NCBI GenBank assembly: GCA_017457155.1
Contig: JAFTHZ010000035.1
Coordinates: 1-52,600 of the forward strand
DNA length: 52,600 bases
From: Ruminococcus sp.
GTDB taxonomy: Bacteria; Bacillota; Clostridia; Oscillospirales; Acutalibacteraceae
Direction: 5' to 3'
The notes below the pieces were generated by a model. That model did not search any database. It was given only the letters and a program-made list of their open reading frames with translations, and was not told where the DNA came from. Numbering within the stretch: position 1 is the stretch's first letter; every line of letters starts with the position of its first letter. The position numbers and the translations under genes were made by a program. Below are positions 23,840 through 52,600 of the stretch, one piece after another.

Positions 23840-24424
23840 ATGTACGAAAATTGGAGTGACCTAGAACAGGAATGTCTCTGCTGTCAGAAATGCGACTTGT
23901 GCAAGGAGAGAACTAACGTTGTTTTTGGCACAGGAAACAAAAACGCAGAGGTTCTCTTCATTGGGGAAGGTCCCGGGGAGAACGAGGATTTGCTGGCAAA
24001 ACCATTTGTGGGCAGAGCCGGTCAGCTCCTTGACAAAATGCTTGCTGCAGTGGACCTGGACCGAAACAAAAACATATACATTGCAAATATGGTCAAGTGT
24101 CGCCCTCCCAAAAACAGAGATCCAAAGCCCGAGGAAGTCTCCTGCTGTCTCGACTGGCTTAGAAATCAGGTGTCACTGATGAGACCCAAGATAATCGTTT
24201 GTCTTGGAAGAATTGCTGCCGCAAGACTCATCAAAGAGGATATTAAAATCACCAAGGAACATGGCATATTCATTGAGAAAAACGGCGTCCTCATGATGGC
24301 TATGCTCCACCCGGCTGCTATCCTGCGCGATCCAAGACGCAAGCCCGAGGCTTTCAACGATTTTCTGATTCTCAGAGATAAGATCAACGAAATCTGCGAC
24401 CATACATACGATTCAAAGGAATAA
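23840..24424 (+). CDS. Type-4 (Fe-S) uracil-DNA glycosylase
   Basis: A 194-residue family-4 uracil-DNA glycosylase. The N-terminal C-x-x-C-x-x-C cluster (CCQKCDLCKERT, residues 14-25) plus later cysteines should bind a [4Fe-4S] cluster. VLFIGEGPGENEDLLAKPFV is the active-site loop with the GEGPG motif, followed by VGRAGQLLDKML, IANMVKCRPPKNRDP and the late HPAAILRDPRRKPEAF motif. It removes uracil from DNA at the start of base excision repair. AAGGAGG lies 11 bases upstream of the ATG. The gene is monocistronic and ends at a bidirectional terminator shared with the noncoding unit to the right. Confidence 0.93.
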   Translation: MYENWSDLEQECLCCQKCDLCKERTNVVFGTGNKNAEVLFIGEGPGENEDLLAKPFVGRAGQLLDKMLAAVDLDRNKNIYIANMVKCRPPKNRDPKPEEVSCCLDWLRNQVSLMRPKIIVCLGRIAAARLIKEDIKITKEHGIFIEKNGVLMMAMLHPAAILRDPRRKPEAFNDFLILRDKINEICDHTYDSKE

Positions 24425-24439
24425 TCAAAAACACATAAA

Positions 24440-24469
24440 AAACCTCCCGCATGACTTAGCGGGAGGTTT
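24440..24469. terminator. Bidirectional intrinsic terminator
   Basis: An 11-bp stem (24440-24450 / 24459-24469). The better T run (TTTTTT then TTTTT) is on the minus strand, so it is strongest for the leftward noncoding transcription unit; it also follows the glycosylase gene. Confidence 0.88.
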
Positions 24470-24495
24470 ATTCTTTGAATAGAGCTAAATTATCT

Positions 24496-24978
24496 TTTGG
24501 CCTATACCTCGTATTTCTTAGACTCTTAAGTTAGAATTTAATTACCACATTGGTTTATCCTCTGTAAGTTGGTTTATATTCTTACTTTTGTTTTTTGAAA
24601 TCACTTGTACATTGGTCCGTACCTTTTTTATCTATAAGGTTTATATTCCTTCTTAGTTTATTATAAGTAGAACTTTGGCCTATACCTCGTATTTCTTAGA
24701 CTCTTAAGTAGAATTTAATTACCACATTGGTTTATCCTCTGTAAGTTGGTTTATATTCTTACTTTTGTTTTTTGAAATTACTTGTACATTGGTCCGTACC
24801 TTTTTGTCTATAAGGTTTATATTCCTTCTTAGTTTATTATAAGTAGAACTTTGGCCTATACCTCGTATTTCTTAGAATCTTAAGTAGAATTTAATTACCA
24901 CATTGGCTTATCCTCTGTAAGTTTGTTTATATTCTTACTTTTGTTTTTAAATTACTTGTACATTGGTCCGTACCTTTT
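24496..24978 (-). repeat. Tandem 176-178 bp repeat, about 2.7 copies
   Basis: On the plus strand, copies begin with TTTGGCCTATACCTCG at 24496, 24674 and 24850; the last is partial, ending at 24978. Copies differ by only a few bases and small indels. On the transcribed minus strand each unit holds five related short motifs built around RRCCAA (for example GGATAAACCAA, GGTATAGGCCAA, GGTACGGACCAA), several inside small hairpins. No open reading frame runs through the units. This is not a CRISPR array: there are no short repeats with unique spacers. Confidence 0.92.
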
Positions 24979-25363
24979 GGTTGCCTGCTTTATGCAGATT
25001 GTTTTCTTTCTTCTATATGTGATTAGTGAATACTTCTGTTTGCAAGTTATTTTTCATTCCGATTTTGGAAGTTCTTTAGTCGATTAATTGTCGTATTCCG
25101 ATAATTCCTGAACAGCTTCTGTAGGGTTATCGAACATGAACCGCCGGATTATACTTTGAAACGAAATTCAGCAGTCCAAAGAATCTGTATCTCAGATGCT
25201 GGAGCGGAGAAGGCTACCGCACAGGACAGCTGATATGCAACAGGGGTTATGATTACTGCCGGACTTGCTGTCACTATTCAGCAGTTCCGGACAGGATATA
25301 TGACTGTACACCGGTATCTCCTCCTTCTGATTTTAGATTAGGTATCTCCTTTTGTCACTTAAA

Positions 25364-25392
25364 GTATACTATATTATTTTAACATTTGCAAT
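25364..25392 (-). promoter_or_regulatory. Sigma-A promoter of the noncoding unit
   Basis: Minus strand: TTGCAA (25387-25392), exactly 17 bp, TATACT (25364-25369). It is in an otherwise empty AT-rich gap and fires toward the structured head and repeat array. Confidence 0.75.
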
Positions 25393-25461
25393 AGTTTTTG
25401 TATATTTTTACCATATATTTTTGCACAATCTTTTCTCTACTATATCGTATATAATGCACAA

Positions 25462-25489
25462 AAGCCTCCCGACAAATGTCGGGAGGCTT
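25462..25489 (-). terminator. Intrinsic terminator of surface protein gene
   Basis: A 12-bp stem (25462-25473 / 25478-25489) with loop AAAT, then TTTT on the minus strand. Confidence 0.88.
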
Positions 25490-25519
25490 CGTTTGGCTAA
25501 ATATTACGTGGAGTAAGAA

Positions 25520-26416
25520 TTACTCTGTAACTCTCTTTCTACGTGCGAAGAATACAACGCCTGCAGATGCAATCATCATTGCGATAGCAATGTAAACGAT
25601 TGTCATCTCCTGACCGGTCTTGATAGAACCGGAGTTTGCAGAATTGCCAGCGTTGCCGCCACCGCCGTTGTTTGTAACGGGGTTGTCAACTACGGGAGCC
25701 TTGGACTCTGCCTTCTTCCAGTCAACAGTTATGCCAGACTCCTTGATAAGGGTCTCAACTGTATCCTGAGAAAGACCGAGTGCGCTAGCCATATCGTCGA
25801 TAATAGCCTGATCTGTCTTACCGGAGTAAGTTCTTGCGTTGTCCAGGTTGTCTGTGAGGAACTTGTTGAACAGACCTGTTGCTGTCTCACCGGGAGCCAG
25901 ACATGTACCAACCAGGTTACCGATAGAAGTGATCTGCATCAGAGGACCGTACTCAGAAGCATTGTGGTTCTTCCAGAATGCTGCACGGCTTGTCTTGTTG
26001 CTGTCAACGGGGTTCTCATACTTTGTGTCGTTGCAGTAGAGAGTGTCACCGAGGCAAGCTGTGGACATCAGAGTCTGATAAGTCTCCATACCTGTATCCA
26101 GAGAGAAGATGATGCAGTAGGTTGTGCTTGCATCGAGGCCGCCAACCTTAGCTGAGGGATCGTAGGAGTAAGTTCTGTCCTCAACGAGTGTGCACTTCTC
26201 CTTCTTGGACTGCCACTGTGCGAGGGGATCTCCGCCATAGGGGAAGATGTGGCAGAATACGCTCTTGTAGTTGTTCCAATCGGAAGGAACTTCAAAGTAG
26301 AACTTTGTATCTGCAGCAACCTCAGCTGTCTCCTCAGTAGCAGCAGAAACACCGATAACTGCCATGCCAGCAATCATGATGAGAGCAATAGCAAGGCTTA
26401 CGATTTTCTTGAACAT
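25520..26416 (-). CDS. Anchored surface protein with starch-binding-like module
   Basis: A 298-residue exported protein: signal peptide (1-25), a beta-rich N-terminal module (about 37-150) beginning TKFYFEVPSDWNNYKSVFCH that resembles CBM26-like starch modules of ruminococci, a helical segment (160-235), a glycine/asparagine linker, and a C-terminal anchor SIKTGQEM - membrane helix - RRKR. The anchor looks like a sortase signal with xxTG rather than LPxTG. Binding of starch is inference from the module and from the amylase genes just upstream. It may present starch at the cell surface. It has its own promoter and terminator. Confidence 0.75.
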   Translation of the reverse strand: MFKKIVSLAIALIMIAGMAVIGVSAATEETAEVAADTKFYFEVPSDWNNYKSVFCHIFPYGGDPLAQWQSKKEKCTLVEDRTYSYDPSAKVGGLDASTTYCIIFSLDTGMETYQTLMSTACLGDTLYCNDTKYENPVDSNKTSRAAFWKNHNASEYGPLMQITSIGNLVGTCLAPGETATGLFNKFLTDNLDNARTYSGKTDQAIIDDMASALGLSQDTVETLIKESGITVDWKKAESKAPVVDNPVTNNGGGGNAGNSANSGSIKTGQEMTIVYIAIAMMIASAGVVFFARRKRVTE

Positions 26417-26468
26417 TGGGATTTCCTCCTTAAAAAATTTTCTGTTCGAGATTTTTCTCGCCTAAGTA

Positions 26469-41789: not shown

Positions 41790-43520
41790 TTAGCCGTTAA
41801 CCTTCTTGCGAAGAACAACAACTGCACATGCTGCCATTGTCAGGATTGCGATTGCAACATAGATGTATGCTGCTGCACCTGTGTCAACTGCATCACCAGC
41901 TGTGCCAGCGTTACCTGTTGCACCTGTTGCGTCAGTTGTGTTGGGAGCAGGTACGGAAGTTGTAGCTGCAGGCTCTGTTACTACAGGCTCATCTGCACCA
42001 GGCTCAGTAGCCTTGGGCTCTGTCTCCTTAGGCTCAGTTACCTTAGGCTCTGTCTCCTTAGGCTCAGTTACCTTAGGCTCTGTCTCCTTGGGCTCAGTTA
42101 CCTTGGGCTCTGTCTCCTTGGGCTCAGTTACCTTAGGCTCTGTCTCCTTGGGCTCAGTAACCTTGGGCTCTGTCTCCTTGGGCTCAGTTACCTTGGGCTC
42201 TGTCTCCTTGGGCTCTGTCTCCTTAGGCTCTGTCTCCTTGGGCTCGGTTGTGCCGGGCTCTGCCTTCTCAGCGGTGACAGACTCGATGAGAGAGAGACCC
42301 TCTGTTACGGAAGGCTTACCATCTGTGAAGTAGGACTCCTCGCCACCCTTGATTGTCATCTCGTCGATAACGCTGTCAATGGATGTCTGGCCAGCTGCTA
42401 CAACTGTGAACTGGAGAGTTACGAGAACCTTCTCCTGCTTGAAGTTGAAGCCGGAAACGTTAGTTGCGTTGAACTTAACTACGTTCTGAACACCAGCGTT
42501 GAAGATAAGGCCGGATGTCAGGTTGGGACATGCGATGGGTCCCTCAATCTCCCAGTCAGCGATGTCGGGATCGTCGGACAGGTAACGTGTCAGCTCAAGA
42601 ACTGTGCCGTCATAGCTAACCTGACCCTGGATATCCTCGAACAGTCTTGCTGCTGTAAGATCCATTGTGTAAGTGAAAACTTCGCCGATGTTTGCGCCGT
42701 AGGATACGCCATCAACTGTGATGTATGTATCGTAGGATGTGCCGGGCTCTGTCTCCTTGGGCTCAGTTACCTTAGGCTCTGTCTCCTTGGGCTCTGTCTC
42801 CTTAGGCTCTGTTACCTTAGGCTCAGTCTCCTTGGGCTCAGTCTCCTTGGGCTCTGTCTCTGTGGGAGTTACATCGGAAGAAACAGGAGCTGTTGTAGAA
42901 CCTGAATCGTCGGGAAGTGTCTCCTGACCTGTGTGGCTACCGGTGAAGATCTCGCCCTCACCCTTAACAGGTGCAAAGCCATACTCGCCGTTGCCGTAGT
43001 AGTAGTACCACTCGCCGCCAACAGTCATCTTACCGCTGTAGGGGTTGACGTCGATCTTGTCAAAGTCAGTAACATAGATCATGCCATCAAAGCTGTCTGT
43101 ACCCTCGGGATAGTTGTCACTCTCACCGGGATCGTAGTACTCAGTACCGATGTTAACGGTCTGAATAGCTGCTGTGTAGATGGGGAGTGTGGGGTCTGTA
43201 CCGCCATCAAGGAAGTTGTTCCAGATAATGGAAGTAACATCCTGGGGTACATCGTAGTAGTAGACGCCGTCGATGTCGCCGGGCACTGCCTCGATTCCGG
43301 GCCATGCACCGTGAGCGTCTGTGCCCTCCCACCAGTAAATACCGGCGGTGTAAGCGTAGTCGTTCTTCCAGTTCTCGGGAAGGTAGAAGTAGTATCTGTT
43401 GCAACCGTCAGCAACCTCAGGAAGGTCAGCCAGATCAGCAGAAACAGAAACCAGAGCTACAGTACCCATTGCGAGTACCATAACGACTGCCAAAAGAACA
43501 CTGATGATTTTTTTGGACAT
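41790..43520 (-). CDS. Anchored starch-binding protein with one cohesin-like module
   Basis: A 576-residue surface protein: signal peptide (1-28), a starch-binding-like module (about 39-185: NRYYFYLPENWKNDY, IYWWEG, AWPGIEA), TEPKE/TEPKV linker (217-260), a cohesin-like module (262-415) with LFEDIQGQVSYDGTVLEL and IEGPIACPNLTSGLIF, a second long TEPK linker (420-510), and an anchor VDTGAAA - membrane helix (551-570) - RKKVNG. It probably binds starch and displays a docking site for dockerin proteins on the cell. The cohesin assignment is by fold-like pattern, not a firm family match. The linker is 15-base DNA repeats that may vary in length. Own promoter and terminator. Confidence 0.8.
   Translation of the reverse strand: MSKKIISVLLAVVMVLAMGTVALVSVSADLADLPEVADGCNRYYFYLPENWKNDYAYTAGIYWWEGTDAHGAWPGIEAVPGDIDGVYYYDVPQDVTSIIWNNFLDGGTDPTLPIYTAAIQTVNIGTEYYDPGESDNYPEGTDSFDGMIYVTDFDKIDVNPYSGKMTVGGEWYYYYGNGEYGFAPVKGEGEIFTGSHTGQETLPDDSGSTTAPVSSDVTPTETEPKETEPKETEPKVTEPKETEPKETEPKVTEPKETEPGTSYDTYITVDGVSYGANIGEVFTYTMDLTAARLFEDIQGQVSYDGTVLELTRYLSDDPDIADWEIEGPIACPNLTSGLIFNAGVQNVVKFNATNVSGFNFKQEKVLVTLQFTVVAAGQTSIDSVIDEMTIKGGEESYFTDGKPSVTEGLSLIESVTAEKAEPGTTEPKETEPKETEPKETEPKVTEPKETEPKVTEPKETEPKVTEPKETEPKVTEPKETEPKVTEPKETEPKVTEPKETEPKATEPGADEPVVTEPAATTSVPAPNTTDATGATGNAGTAGDAVDTGAAAYIYVAIAILTMAACAVVVLRKKVNG
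42000..42250 (-). repeat. 15-base repeats encoding TEPKE/TEPKV linker
   Basis: About seventeen in-frame 15-base units (minus strand, ACNGAGCCCAAGGAG-type) encode the long C-terminal linker. A shorter run of the same units lies at 42737-42862 before the cohesin-like module. Synonymous variation is limited to a few third positions. Confidence 0.9.
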
Positions 43521-45952: not shown

Positions 45953-48439
45953 TTAGCCGTTAACTCTCTTGCGGAGAACAACTACTGCGAATGCTGCCAT
46001 TGTCAGGATAGCGATTGCAACATAGATGTATGCTGCTGCACCAGTGTCAACTGCATCACCGTTTGTACCGGGTGTGCCTGTTGCGCCTGTTGCATCACTT
46101 GTGTTGGGAGCAGGAGCAGTTGTTGTAGCTGCGGGATCAGTAACCTTGGGCTCTGTCTCCTTAGGCTCTGTTACCTTGGGCTCAGTCTCCTTAGGCTCTG
46201 TTACCTTGGGCTCAGTCTCCTTGGGCTCTGTTACCTTAGGCTCAGTCTCCTTAGGCTCTGTTACCTTAGGCTCAGTCTCCTTAGGCTCAGTCTCCTTAGG
46301 CTCAGTCTCCTTAGGCTCTGTCTCCTTAGGCTCTGTCTCCTTAGGCTCAGTCTCCTTAGGCTCAGTCTCCTTAGGCTCTGTCTCCTTGGGCTCAGTCTCC
46401 TTGGGCTCTGTTACCTTAGGCTCTGTCTCCTTGGGCTCTGTCTCCTTGGGCTCTGTTACAGTTGTGCCAGGAACAACAGGATGATCAGGAACATCGAGAT
46501 ACTCGTCACGAACGAGACCCTCTGTGATAGCGGGCTCACCGTCTGTGTAGTAAGAATCCTCGCCGCCCTTAATTGTCATCTCCTCAACCAGAGTGGAGAT
46601 TGTTGTCTCACCAGTACCAGCTACGATGAACTCGAGAGTGATGAGAGTCTTCTCCTGCTTGAAGTTGAAGCCGGAAACGTTAGTTGCGTTGAAGTTTACG
46701 ATACCCTCGATACCAGCATTGAAGATAAGGCCGGATGTGAGGTTGGGACATGCGATGGGACCCTCGATCTCCCAATCTGCTACGTCGGGATCATCGGAGA
46801 GGTGACGAACAAGCTCAAGCTTTGCTGCGTCGTAAGTAACCTTACCCTGGATATCCTCGAACAGTCTTGCTGCCTCGAGATCGAATGTGTAAGTTACCTT
46901 ATCGCCAACATATGCTGTATAAACCTTGTCTGTACCAGCAATGTAGATTGTGAGTGTATCCTCACCAACAACAGGTGTGGACTCAGTTACCTTAGGCTCA
47001 GTCTCCTTAGGCTCAGTCTCCTTGGGCTCAGTCTCCTTGGGCTCAGTCTCAGTAGGCTCTGTTATGATGGGGCCATTACCGTCGAGAGTCTCAACAGTTG
47101 TGAGACCATCTGTGATAACCTGCTGGCCGCCTGTGAAGTAAGACTCCTCGCCACCCTTGATTGTCATCTCTTCGATAACAGTGTCGATTGTGGAGAGTGT
47201 ATCGTCAAGAACCTTGAACTCCAGAGTGATGAGAACCTTCTCCTCCTTGAAGTTGAAGCCGGAAACGTTAGTTGCGTTGAACTTAACGAGACCCTCGATA
47301 CCAGCGTTGTAGATGAGGCCGGATGTCAGGTTGGGGCAAGCGATGGGGCCCTCAACCTCCCAGTCAGCTACGTCGGGATCATCGGACAGGTGACGAACCA
47401 GCTCAAGCTTAGTTGCGTCGTATGTAACTGTACCCTGGATATCCTCGAACAGTCTTGCTGCCTGGAGCTCGAATGTGTAAGTGATTGTCTTGCCAACTGT
47501 TACATCGTACTTTGTGCCATCAACGATAACACCCTTCTCTGTAACAACGGGATCTGTACCCTTAGGCTCAGTCTCTGTAACCTTGGGCTCAGTCTCTGTA
47601 ACCTTGGGCTCAGTCTCCTTGGGCTCTGTCTCCTTAGGCTCTGTTCCGATGGGAGCATACTCATAGGATGCGCAGGGCTTTGTATTTGTAGCCTCATCAT
47701 ATGTCATGTAGAAGCATACGCCGTCATACCAACCCTCTGTAACGTCAGCAGACTGGTCAAGACCATATCCGCCTGTACCGCTGAATACGATACCGGTGAT
47801 ATCAGTGGGAAGCTCGATGGAGTATCTATCGTAGCCATCAGCTGTTGTATCAACGTAGGTCATATCTACGCCGGGCCACTCCATAGCAGGAGCAGAACCG
47901 CCCCATACATAGATCTTAGCGTCAGGCCACATCCAGTTGTTCTCGAAGTAAACTGTCATTGTCTCGCCGGGAACTACAGGAGTTGTGGGGATAGGATCAA
48001 CGGGAGTTGTGGGGATGGGATCAACAGATCCGCCGCCAGCTGTAATCTCGAGGAGAGCCTTAGTACCATCGAAACCGATAGTAACTGTGGAACCATCCTG
48101 AGTTACCTCTGCTGTTGCGTTAGGACCGCCGTACTTTGCATCACCAGTGAGATTAAAGTCAGCGATGTCCCATGAACCGCCTGTGGTAACCTTGAAATCA
48201 TAGGTACCAGCAGCAACGTTTGTATATACCTTCTCGTATATACCCTTGTCTGCATTCCATGTCATCTGGTTGTTTGTGTCTGAGGGATCCCAATTAGAAC
48301 CACACAGCTCAGCAGCACCAGCAACAACATGGAACTCGCCCTCTGAAAGTGCAAAAGAAGAGATGATACCAACGCTTGCTACGCTGAATACCATAACGAT
48401 TGCCAGAATCAGAGAGAGAATCTTCTTGTTTTTGGACAT
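45953..48439 (-). CDS. Anchored scaffold: X25-like and CBM26-like modules plus two cohesin-like modules
   Basis: An 828-residue surface protein: signal peptide (1-31), an X25/amylopullulanase-type module (about 35-134: FHVVAGAAELCGSNWDPSD, AGTYDFKVTTGGSWD), a CBM26-like module (159-262: IYVWGG, MEWPGVDMTYV), TEPK linker, cohesin-like module 1 (302-448), TEPK linker, cohesin-like module 2 (494-642), a TEPK linker of about 110 residues, and the anchor VDTGAAA - helix - RKRVNG. Both cohesin-like modules share LFEDIQGxVTYDAxKLELVRHLSDDPDVADW and EGPIACPNLTSGLI. By inference it holds starch and two dockerin proteins at the cell. It is a longer paralogue of the 576-residue gene. Confidence 0.82.
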   Translation of the reverse strand: MSKNKKILSLILAIVMVFSVASVGIISSFALSEGEFHVVAGAAELCGSNWDPSDTNNQMTWNADKGIYEKVYTNVAAGTYDFKVTTGGSWDIADFNLTGDAKYGGPNATAEVTQDGSTVTIGFDGTKALLEITAGGGSVDPIPTTPVDPIPTTPVVPGETMTVYFENNWMWPDAKIYVWGGSAPAMEWPGVDMTYVDTTADGYDRYSIELPTDITGIVFSGTGGYGLDQSADVTEGWYDGVCFYMTYDEATNTKPCASYEYAPIGTEPKETEPKETEPKVTETEPKVTETEPKGTDPVVTEKGVIVDGTKYDVTVGKTITYTFELQAARLFEDIQGTVTYDATKLELVRHLSDDPDVADWEVEGPIACPNLTSGLIYNAGIEGLVKFNATNVSGFNFKEEKVLITLEFKVLDDTLSTIDTVIEEMTIKGGEESYFTGGQQVITDGLTTVETLDGNGPIITEPTETEPKETEPKETEPKETEPKVTESTPVVGEDTLTIYIAGTDKVYTAYVGDKVTYTFDLEAARLFEDIQGKVTYDAAKLELVRHLSDDPDVADWEIEGPIACPNLTSGLIFNAGIEGIVNFNATNVSGFNFKQEKTLITLEFIVAGTGETTISTLVEEMTIKGGEDSYYTDGEPAITEGLVRDEYLDVPDHPVVPGTTVTEPKETEPKETEPKVTEPKETEPKETEPKETEPKETEPKETEPKETEPKETEPKETEPKETEPKVTEPKETEPKVTEPKETEPKVTEPKETEPKVTEPKETEPKVTDPAATTTAPAPNTSDATGATGTPGTNGDAVDTGAAAYIYVAIAILTMAAFAVVVLRKRVNG
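46139..46462 (-). repeat. 15-base repeats encoding TEPKE/TEPKV linker
   Basis: About twenty-one in-frame 15-base units encode the stalk before the anchor. Shorter runs of related units occur at 46980-47065 and 47560-47645 between modules. The array keeps long frames open on both strands. Confidence 0.9.
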
Positions 48440-51357: not shown

Positions 51358-52600
51358 TCAGCCTGCGAATTTACTCCAGGTACCTGCACCATTGTCCCAT
51401 CCTGTAACAGAATACATATTGTTTCCGTCGGTGGGAATCTTCAGGTCAGATGTCTGATTCCACTTATTTGTCCAGTTGTTTGTTGTAGCTGAGGGATTCA
51501 TACGACAGAAGATAACGTTGACCCAATTGCCAGCTGGGATCTCTGCCTCATAAATCCCATCACCATTTGTGTCCTTCATGTCAACCCAGACAGTTGCACC
51601 GCCATCATCCCACAGATACATTGCGAATCTGGCGTTGTCTTTCTTCCAGTTGCTGTTGGGCTTCATGTAAAGAACTGTTGAGTCGTCAGGCTCCTCAGGA
51701 GCAGGCTCTGTTGCTGCGGGGGTTGTAGTCTCGGGAGCATCTGTTGCGGGCTCCTTGGGCTGAATTGTGAAGTAGAAGTAAGACCAGCTCTCGTTACCCT
51801 CAGGCATGAAGTATACTGTACCCTCGCCTACCTTGGGCTCGCCGATCTTGTAATTGTCGCCGCCGTCGTTGTACCAAGTCTCGATCTCTGTACCATTGAA
51901 GTATACAACCTTAACCTCGTCGTTGAGATAGAAGGTGTAGTCCAGCATGTACTCGCCGTCAACCTTGGAGTTCTCCTTGAGCTTTCTGTCTGCTGTGAGT
52001 GTGTCTGCTGACCAGTAGTCCTCACCATTGAGGGAACCTACCAGATAGTAACCTGCCTCGATTTTCTCAGGAGCATCTGTAACAGCGGGAGCTGTTGTTG
52101 CAGGAGCATCTGTTACTACGGGTGCTGCTGTTGTTGCAGGAGCGTCTGTAACCACGGGTGCTGCTGTTGTTGCAGGAGCATCTGTAACTACGGGTGCTGC
52201 TGTTGTTGCAGGAGCGTCTGTAACTACGGGTGCTGCTGTTGTTGCAGGAGCATCTGTAACTACGGGTACTGTTGTGAGCACTGCTGCAGTAGTTACTACT
52301 GTTGTAACTACGGGAACTGCGGTTGTCTCATCAGGTGTATCAGTCTTGTATGTGTATGTACCAACTGTCCACTTGCCGTCTGTACCCTGCTCGTCAGGAT
52401 AGAAACCTGCATTGTTCTCAATACCCTCAGTAACGTCTACTGTCTGGTTTGTGTTGCCGTCGATGCCGTTGTTGAATACGATGCCTGTTACATCTGCAGG
52501 AACATCATAGCTATATACGTCCTGACCATACTCGTTGGTCTCAACGAAATTCATCTCTACACCGGACCACTCAACAGAAGCGCCTGTGCCGCCCCAGTAG
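51358..52600 (-). CDS. Partial multi-module starch-binding protein (5' end beyond window)
   Basis: The reading frame is open to the right edge, so the N-terminus is missing; an ATG at 52554 lies inside a module and is not the start. The visible 413 residues hold the end of a CBM26-like module (YWGGTGASVEWSGVEMNFV, then DVTGIVFNNG), a linker of TDAPATTAAPVV repeats, a beta module (GYYLVGSLNGEDYWSADTL) and a C-terminal module with NARFAMYLWDDGGATVWVDM and VNVIFCRMNPSATTNNW, a pattern seen at the C-terminus of many starch-active proteins. No anchor or dockerin is present at the C-terminus. It probably binds starch; a catalytic domain could lie beyond the edge. Confidence 0.8.
   Translation of the reverse strand, partial: YWGGTGASVEWSGVEMNFVETNEYGQDVYSYDVPADVTGIVFNNGIDGNTNQTVDVTEGIENNAGFYPDEQGTDGKWTVGTYTYKTDTPDETTAVPVVTTVVTTAAVLTTVPVVTDAPATTAAPVVTDAPATTAAPVVTDAPATTAAPVVTDAPATTAAPVVTDAPATTAPAVTDAPEKIEAGYYLVGSLNGEDYWSADTLTADRKLKENSKVDGEYMLDYTFYLNDEVKVVYFNGTEIETWYNDGGDNYKIGEPKVGEGTVYFMPEGNESWSYFYFTIQPKEPATDAPETTTPAATEPAPEEPDDSTVLYMKPNSNWKKDNARFAMYLWDDGGATVWVDMKDTNGDGIYEAEIPAGNWVNVIFCRMNPSATTNNWTNKWNQTSDLKIPTDGNNMYSVTGWDNGAGTWSKFAG
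52075..52270 (-). repeat. 36-base repeats encoding TDAPATTAAPVV linker
   Basis: About five in-frame, near-identical 36-base units encode a 12-residue proline/threonine/alanine linker between two modules of the partial starch-binding protein. Confidence 0.88.

Follow-up and report, generated by a model that had tools for sequence, protein, structure and literature searches.

A predicted RNA gene of Ruminococcus sp. with a tail of translation-initiation-like sites and start-stop minigenes, and similar RNAs in other Clostridia

The window analyzed in this study is a stretch of 52,600 nucleotides from a Ruminococcus sp. genome, and the unit described here occupies the minus strand of the gap between a uracil-DNA glycosylase (UDG) gene and a surface-protein gene. 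The original prediction placed in this gap a dedicated RNA with its own promoter, a folded head, a repeat tail and a terminator. The features of the locus are as follows (window coordinates).

23840-24424, plus strand: UDG gene, the neighbor on one side of the unit
25520-26416, minus strand: surface-protein gene, the neighbor on the other side
25386-25391, minus strand: -35 box TTGCAA, from the sequence; TTGCAA or TTGCAC in 8/8 syntenic relatives
25363-25368, minus strand: -10 box TATACT, 17 nt past the -35 box, kept in relatives
25341-25353, minus strand: SD-like AAAAGGAGATACC with no start codon after it, at the presumed extreme 5′ end, from sequence only
24496-24978, minus strand: tail, a tandem array of A and B sites, from a repeat search (period 176)
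about 24437-24469, minus strand: intrinsic terminator hairpin with TTTTTT, from a scan; a terminator lies at the matching place in eight relatives

The predicted minus-strand promoter with 17-bp spacing was found at 25391-25363 (TTGCAA-17-TATACT), as was the terminator said to have its better T run leftward; the minus-strand side of this hairpin (about 24437-24469) ends in TTTTTT, with a poor run of T on the plus side. If the start is taken from the -10 box (near 25356) and the end is placed near 24437, the predicted transcript would measure ~920 nt, the length originally expected. The promoter assignment takes its weight from conservation in relatives rather than from match quality, since the promoter scan ranks GTGACA-17-TAAAAT (25358-25330) above TTGCAA-17-TATACT (10 vs 9 of 12), and the interval 24000-25800 holds eight promoter-like sites compared with 4.9 (sd 2.1) in shuffles. 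The element AAAAGGAGATACC at the presumed extreme 5′ end of the transcript is a possible ribosome-docking site. Because the surface-protein gene has a terminator-like hairpin of its own at its 3′ side (about 25462-25489, seen in the sequence and not picked by the terminator scan), the unit is probably not merely the 3′ end of that gene. The start of the surface-protein gene is preceded by AGGAGGAAATCCCAATG (26414-26430, minus), which is close to the head site described below. Further repeats with 15-, 30-, 36- and 45-bp units lie in the window at 42001-42249, 42744-42860, 46144-46456, 46982-47059 and 52068-52275 and are presumably low-complexity parts of surface proteins.

The 177-bp tandem array of the original prediction was recovered at 24496-24978 with a period of 176, 2.7 head-to-tail copies, 96% matches and 29% GC. 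Within it lie nine AGG-N4-7-CCA sites. Six of these (A sites) lead into an AUG whose frame stops after two or three codons, the remaining three (B sites) have no start codon, and the 176-bp repeat corresponds to an A-A-B block. A PSSM finds six of the nine sites and the pattern derived from a six-genome comparison finds all nine.

24952-24978, minus strand: A site 1, AAAAGGTACGGACCA; minigene ATG TAC AAG TAA at 24952-24963
24895-24918, minus strand: A site 2, ACAGAGGATAAGCCA; minigene ATG TGG TAA at 24895-24903
24851-24866, minus strand: B site 1, ACGAGGTATAGGCCAA; no start codon
24778-24804, minus strand: A site 3; minigene ATG TAC AAG TAA at 24778-24789
24719-24742, minus strand: A site 4; minigene ATG TGG TAA at 24719-24727
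24675-24690, minus strand: B site 2; no start codon
24601-24627, minus strand: A site 5; minigene ATG TAC AAG TGA at 24601-24612, with TAA changed to TGA and the frame kept
24542-24565, minus strand: A site 6; minigene ATG TGG TAA at 24542-24550
24497-24512, minus strand: B site 3; the final site ahead of the terminator

By its sequence, the tail is a string of translation-initiation-like sites, and the 176-bp repeat is a recent duplication of a shorter A/B unit. A conserved protein-coding frame had been named as evidence that would speak against an RNA gene, and no long coding frame was found. The statement that no reading frame runs through the gap holds for long frames; it does not extend to the six ORFs of two to three codons behind SD-like sites or to a 39-codon GUG frame in the head. 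The description as noncoding needs qualifying, as the repeat tail consists of initiation-like sites with start-stop mini-ORFs, and the same series gives a reading of a tail that had been left unexplained.

To place the unit among its relatives, UDG was located in 147 of 161 same-genus genomes and the best 30 loci, window included, were fetched. All eight genomes with the most similar UDG (G000, which is the window's own, G079, G069, G020, G076, G078, G102 and G088) have a promoter of the TTGCA[AC] type next to this gene, together with an SD-rich 5′ region and a terminator. No such unit was seen in the two further UDG gaps (L033 and L034) inspected among the other 22 loci. The array is present in six of the 161 genus genomes, with 3-8 exact GAGGTAYRGNCCAA matches each; eleven other genus genomes have 12 matches in total, compared with 12 in a backward control, and no second copy of a looser motif, tested in the sense direction, was detected in the fetched loci of those eleven. 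In G020 and G102 there is the promoter with one 5′ site and no array. These same-locus sequences lend good support to a dedicated RNA gene that has a promoter, head, tail and terminator of its own.

In the six tails, the A sites take the form [G]AGG-N4-7-CCA-AUG and the B sites are like AAGAAANNNGAGGUAYRGNCCA followed by ACA, AAG or AAA. An in-frame stop follows 2-4 sense codons at 27/27 A sites from the six species, and at all 27 the features by which we define a minigene (a start, one to six codons and a stop, with the frame conserved) are present. Minigenes in the six genomes include AUG UAC NNN UAA, AUG UGG UAA and AUG AGA UAA, and those of G079 read AUG UAC AGU UUA UGA and AUG UGG AGU UUU UGA. 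The variation falls on codons 2 and 3, with start, stop and frame constant. Tail copy number and unit length vary between species, and the promoter, the shorter A/B unit, the terminator and the mini-ORFs recur in five other species in which the spacers have diverged. A consensus fold was sought for the segments of the six tails; none was found for A and a 3-bp stem was found for B. The B sites were rejected as coding frames, which by eye are open in some copies only. A blastn search of the region in 59 relatives recovered the syntenic RNA of G020 (L002), and three further matches (L003, L004 and L007) were judged by eye to be chance, coding or promoter likeness. At another of the matches, L005/L075 (G009:C6, about 5.2-5.9 kb, minus), an AT-rich gap has a promoter-like start, AAAAGGAGATATCC and a terminator-like hairpin and may be a diverged relative of the array unit.

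The head was compared across the relatives for conserved pairings, and the elements discussed are the following.

25192-25328, minus strand: folded head with SD, hairpin P2, anti-SD and GUG frame, from the pairing comparison across relatives
25313-25328, minus strand: strong head SD, pairing with the anti-SD
25256-25294, minus strand: hairpin P2, between head SD and anti-SD
25206-25218, minus strand: head anti-SD, pairing with the head SD
25192-25311, minus strand: 39-codon GUG frame behind the head SD

The head is GC-richer, as described originally, with 44% GC at 25080-25340 vs 29% in the array; the whole window has 45%. Its overall folding energy is ordinary (z -1.34, with 11 of 100 shuffles folding as well), but it contains one hairpin and one long-range pairing that recur in six relatives. 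Pairing of the head SD AAGGAGGAGAU with an anti-SD that lies 104-110 nt downstream reaches -16.5 to -19.5 kcal/mol across the six array relatives, which beats all 479-728 windows further downstream in the same RNA. The hairpin has 93.3% of 60 cells paired and 4/10 pairs changed on both sides in these six sequences. None of 500 shuffles reaches its covariation score and sliding the partner destroys the signal, while 5/500 reach the count of pairs changed on both sides and 70/500 the count of pair types, all with a bias in favor of the hairpin since its structure was derived from the same sequences. The search for homologues in related Ruminococcus returned eight same-locus units, six of them with the covarying head hairpin, and a head that is conserved in relatives, the absence of which had been put forward as an argument against the unit. 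The frame behind the head SD is 37-39 codons long in relatives; as its length is kept and its peptide is not, we do not call it a protein gene.

The window has no match to an Rfam family at gathering score, including the raiA motif (RF03072), which had been proposed for the head, and a lax search of the region (E up to 10) returned no raiA and nothing credible, with matches mostly on the two terminators. In the related loci, the families above gathering score were tRNA, skipping-rope, Gut-1 and the glycine riboswitch, all outside the units, and the best sub-threshold hint was RT-2 on the syntenic RNA of G020 (18.1 bits vs a gathering score of 40). Other origins were also considered and rejected. 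ARAGORN finds no tmRNA in six loci, the window region (L001) included. The repeats run head-to-tail with a period of 176 and 96% matches and have no unique spacers, in contrast to a CRISPR array with its 24-48-nt repeats. The region has no blastn match in either the phage or the plasmid collection, and a scan of viral contigs gave three single, chance-like matches.

Similar sites occur elsewhere in Clostridia. When the species-genome collection was scanned with one exact pattern, 30 stretches were returned: five known arrays, 18 that we regard as similar freestanding units (four of them, L088, L096, L099 and L103, seen only as sites and not as whole units) and seven stretches dropped as chance or coding, judged from context. 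Ten of the 18 units come from genomes labeled Lachnospiraceae, and the others we assign to other Clostridia. With strict patterns, units were found sparsely, in 5/250 and 3/21 genomes of family f51 (presumably Lachnospiraceae). A 35-locus set was then assembled from the six array loci, the 18 scan units, five family-f51 loci and six of 18 loci with GAGGTAYRGDCCAATG. Because those six were picked by eye, partly on architecture, with 12 dropped, the unselected GAGGTAYRGDCCAATG count is the cleaner test. In 391 class genomes there are 18 GAGGTAYRGDCCAATG sites vs three in a backward control, with no selection for ORF length; in 12 of the 18 the ORF is no longer than five codons (L110, one of these, resembles coding sequence), in four the frame runs for 185-389 codons and two are apparently within coding sequence. 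That the same start region opens real genes supports its reading as a translation-initiation site.

In the 35 loci, a perfect TTGACA-(16/17)-TATAAT lies upstream in seven, and a PSSM built from exact copies finds 103 copies, its own 77 seeds included, vs four in reversed sequence. Among the 65 copies with AUG or UUG, 55 stop within five sense codons and 62 within eight. For the same 65 copies the +1 and +2 frames have 15/20 and 29/31 stops within 5/8 codons, where 14 copies with UGA at once in +1 (inside AUGA) are excluded from the control counts, and among the 128 AUGs found elsewhere in these transcripts, 31 stop at 2-5 codons and 62 by eight. For B sites, the stops that follow are spread over the three frames with little preference (25, 21 and 14 of 38 within five codons by frame). 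Neighboring copies are at least 45 nt apart and 41 of 68 spacings measure 51-66 nt, which would leave room for one ribosome per site. Pairing of motif copies with the 16S tail has a mean of -13.1 kcal/mol vs -4.8 kcal/mol for the rest of the RNAs, calculated with a tail that is exact in two of ten genomes, both one-contig, and was not found in the eight array-clade genomes searched. The motif is not predicted to be more open than other purine stretches (0.45 vs 0.52). An extended pairing of the spacer with the 16S tail, which the energies suggest, was rejected, as the constant G faces U when the alignment is read.

Some of the loci have further features. In family f66, GAGGTACRGACCA and a three-codon ORF lie just 3′ of apparent secreted-peptide genes (L118 and L126 in G473, L119 in G440). 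The minigenes AUG GUU UAA and AUG GCU UAA, each with a strong SD, open the leaders of apparent secreted-peptide genes at L195 and L196 (G030:C44 and C60), where the 5′ module may serve mRNAs too. Six Lachnospiraceae-type loci (L079, L091, L096, L099, L129 and L131) share a GACGAGAAAG loop in mid-unit hairpins with differing stems, a region that can be read as a candidate structured core between two ribosome sites.

A looser 5′-site pattern applied to the genus found mostly ordinary genes. Of eight stretches fetched from it, four had a long frame, two a minigene before another gene and two were RNAs of a second type, referred to here as sister RNAs, to which the pattern led by way of G011 and G077. 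These are about 0.2-0.5 kb long; the G077 RNA is matched in 17/161 genus genomes at E <=1e-8, and related RNAs are found in 9/16 genomes of family f42. Of 27 sister RNAs examined, the script found a 5′ site in all except two. The site lies 17-25 nt past the -10 box in 24/25 and 37 nt past it in one, and in 25/25 it opens an ORF of two to three codons, of which there are 17 different ones, some identical to those of the array (AUG UAC AAG UAA and AUG UAC AAU UAA). Early stops in the other two frames number 1/25 and 1/25, with 15/25 minigenes that have UGA at once in +1 (AUGA) excluded from these control counts.

At their 3′ end, the sister RNAs have an ORF of 9-10 codons with an MLDxKxEQK-like (MLD[IN]KSEQK-like) peptide, which the script did not find in L212 and L214. 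In the 27 RNAs, K6 is always AAG or AAA, 25 have TTA or CTA for L, and D is always GAT or GAC, a constancy of D that is partly built in since peptides were kept only with an LD, DxK or DIK pattern. The last codons and the stop of this ORF are also the 5′ arm of the terminator stem. Sequences with UGA in place of UAA as the stop (9/25) also have a changed partner base, and 11/18 pairs of the stem are changed on both sides. A single covariance model of the sister 3′ end (R1) reaches nine families of the class, sparsely (22/391 genomes, of which nine gave training sequences, one is a near-copy and 12 are independent); its match in family f78 is weak and without the ORF. One of the 12 independent matches is in the window's own genome (L246, G000:C19:43360-43462, minus, E = 3.9e-12), in an RNA with the 5′ minigene AUG AAG AGG UAA and a 3′ MLDNKSEQK whose stop lies within the terminator stem. 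Across 14 places outside the R1 training set the script found the 3′ ORF in ten and the 5′ minigene in 7/10, and 7/7 of these minigenes stop after two to three codons.

As for the 5′ minigene of the sister RNAs, the relatives with the array possess A sites along with a site in the 5′ head; in the window, the head frame has 39 codons, the extreme 5′ SD is without a start codon and the RNA is without a 3′ ORF of the sister type. R1 has no match in the window array RNA and matches weakly at the last site and terminator of three array relatives (L072, E 0.0097; L070, 0.046; L071, 0.15), hence common descent of the two 3′ ends is only a suggestion. The sister RNAs L204-L213 have AAGTAAATCTCACTTACGAGAA-like stretches ahead of their 3′ ORF, where GUAA/UUAC interleaves with UCUC/GAGA (with UCCC/GGGA in L204); by eye, this is a possible pseudoknot.

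The features that are constant (the SD-like element, its distance to the AUG, the start and the early stop) face the ribosome and the peptides vary; a ribosome-bound RNA is the simplest reading. We put at roughly 45% the probability that the array RNA is an RNA gene with a tail of ribosome-docking sites, which holds ribosomes and is guarded from nucleases, perhaps titrating the ribosomes. The sites, their spacings, the conservation of start, stop and frame, and the recurring promoter, head hairpin and terminator are read directly from the genomes, and from them we infer transcription, ribosome occupancy, stability, an effect on translation and a purpose. An A site would be a translation-initiation region with a minigene of 2-4 codons; a B site, which has this region but no start codon, would be able to bind a 30S subunit and not to initiate. 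The head fold would mask the strong SD of the head itself. Ribosomes would settle along the tail, with spacings that allow neighboring sites to be filled simultaneously, and once bound would shield the RNA from nucleases. The long-lived RNA would then hold ribosomes or 30S subunits with a capacity that scales with copy number, with the peptides arising as by-products. Its purpose could lie in stability, in titration or in delivery of the head to ribosomes. What speaks against docking sites is that the UAYRGNCCA spacer is more conserved than an ordinary SD-to-AUG spacer needs and that the B sites are conserved too, both of which could be due to an RNA-binding protein. The unremarkable predicted openness of the motif and the rarity of the array (6/161 genus genomes) and of the strict-pattern units count against docking as well.

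Sponge RNAs such as CsrB and RsmZ are freestanding and repeat an SD-like motif many times, a property shared by the array RNA. It could accordingly be argued that the repeated motif mimics mRNA start regions and titrates a repressor protein, as CsrB does CsrA, the more so as the motif is kept beyond the SD, spacer UAYRGNCCA included, even in B sites unable to initiate. We consider this improbable. CsrA (PF02599) was found in 0/10 genomes searched, several of them incomplete, with positive controls in E. coli, B. subtilis and T. maritima; the motif lacks a constant GGA, most copies have a start and a stop, and a sponge for another protein, while possible, would not need start codon, stop and frame to be kept. 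The keeping of start and stop and not of the SD alone would instead fit minigenes that act by being translated, either through formyl-peptides or through peptidyl-tRNA drop-off that slows translation, like over-expressed two-codon ORFs. UAA is frequent here, and two-codon ORFs with a strong SD and UAA are reported to be the most toxic (PMC8708949). Given that the peptides differ between and within RNAs, that UGA and UAG stops occur too and that B sites have no start, such an action is unlikely, if somewhat less so than the sponge.

Function could also reside in the head, with the tail serving passively as a spacer that can expand or as a 3′ stabilizer. The covarying hairpin and the SD:anti-SD pairing are kept in the head, tail copy number and unit length change with species, and G020 and G102 do without the array; yet diverged tail copies keep frame, start, stop and spacing, and sites of the tail type are present in RNAs of other families that lack this head, which makes a passive tail rather unlikely, its standing between that of the sponge and that of the translated minigenes. 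Very improbable, finally, is an untranscribed or decaying tandem repeat without function. The 176-bp unit was indeed recently duplicated (96% matches) and its transcription is a prediction, but promoter, A/B unit, terminator and mini-ORFs are all present again in five other species, whose spacers have diverged.

The usual view of start-stop ORFs is that they arise by chance or, at best, act as leader cis elements. Here, they are conserved units of freestanding RNAs, with several per RNA. A Shine-Dalgarno sequence with or without a start codon lets a ribosome block decay from the 5′ end, as in STAB-SD. Such ribosome-protected 5′ ends are known in Bacillus from the cry leader and the hbs mRNA, and the subject is touched on in PMC3997798. 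The B sites and the 5′-terminal sites of the RNAs described here would resemble STAB-SD by sequence, with the difference that STAB-SD is one site on an mRNA and these form an array in a separate RNA gene. The leader minigenes of axe-txe and LEE4 (PMC8708949) are like the array in having ORFs of two to six codons behind a strong SD; they are single cis elements before a gene, whereas the array sites are freestanding, often in tandem, with no gene behind. According to that source, a ribosome bound at a strong-SD mini-ORF protects the transcript (the LEE4 case), and in its own system minigene translation is needed and not just SD binding (PMC8708949).

The array RNA is like raiA/ModT, OLE, ROOL and GOLLD in being a large freestanding Bacillota RNA with its own promoter, the function of that group being mostly unknown, and differs in having no Rfam match and an AU-rich tail for which no consensus fold was found. 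Dual-function small RNAs also encode a peptide. The sister RNAs, with their conserved ORF of 9-10 codons, are similar to these except that the ORF ends inside the terminator stem and a minigene lies at the 5′ end. Since similar RNAs are seen in other Clostridia and gave no match to a catalogued family, they may on sequence grounds be a new kind of ribosome-binding RNA. A wider proposal, which is tentative and which we regard with some doubt, is that Clostridia have a class of freestanding ribosome-binding RNAs capped at the 5′ end by a minigene of 2-3 codons and often closed by an ORF of 9-10 codons that ends in the terminator stem, and that some lineages, the present one included, have expanded the minigene into arrays that accommodate several ribosomes together and thereby buffer or report the supply of free ribosomes. 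Minigenes and ribosome-guarded 5′ ends are already known, and a tandem freestanding RNA made of them is apparently new; among the matches listed from the open-access literature, as partly available and with subscription journals mostly outside it, no description was found of tandem minigenes in freestanding RNAs or of MLDxKxEQK-like peptides. Should ribosomes in fact occupy these sites, the ribosome would itself be the partner of this kind of RNA, and two questions would become testable, namely the means by which untranslated RNAs of bacteria avoid decay and the possible use of RNA by cells to hold or count ribosomes. Genes of this kind are overlooked both by ORF-length cut-offs and by Rfam searches.
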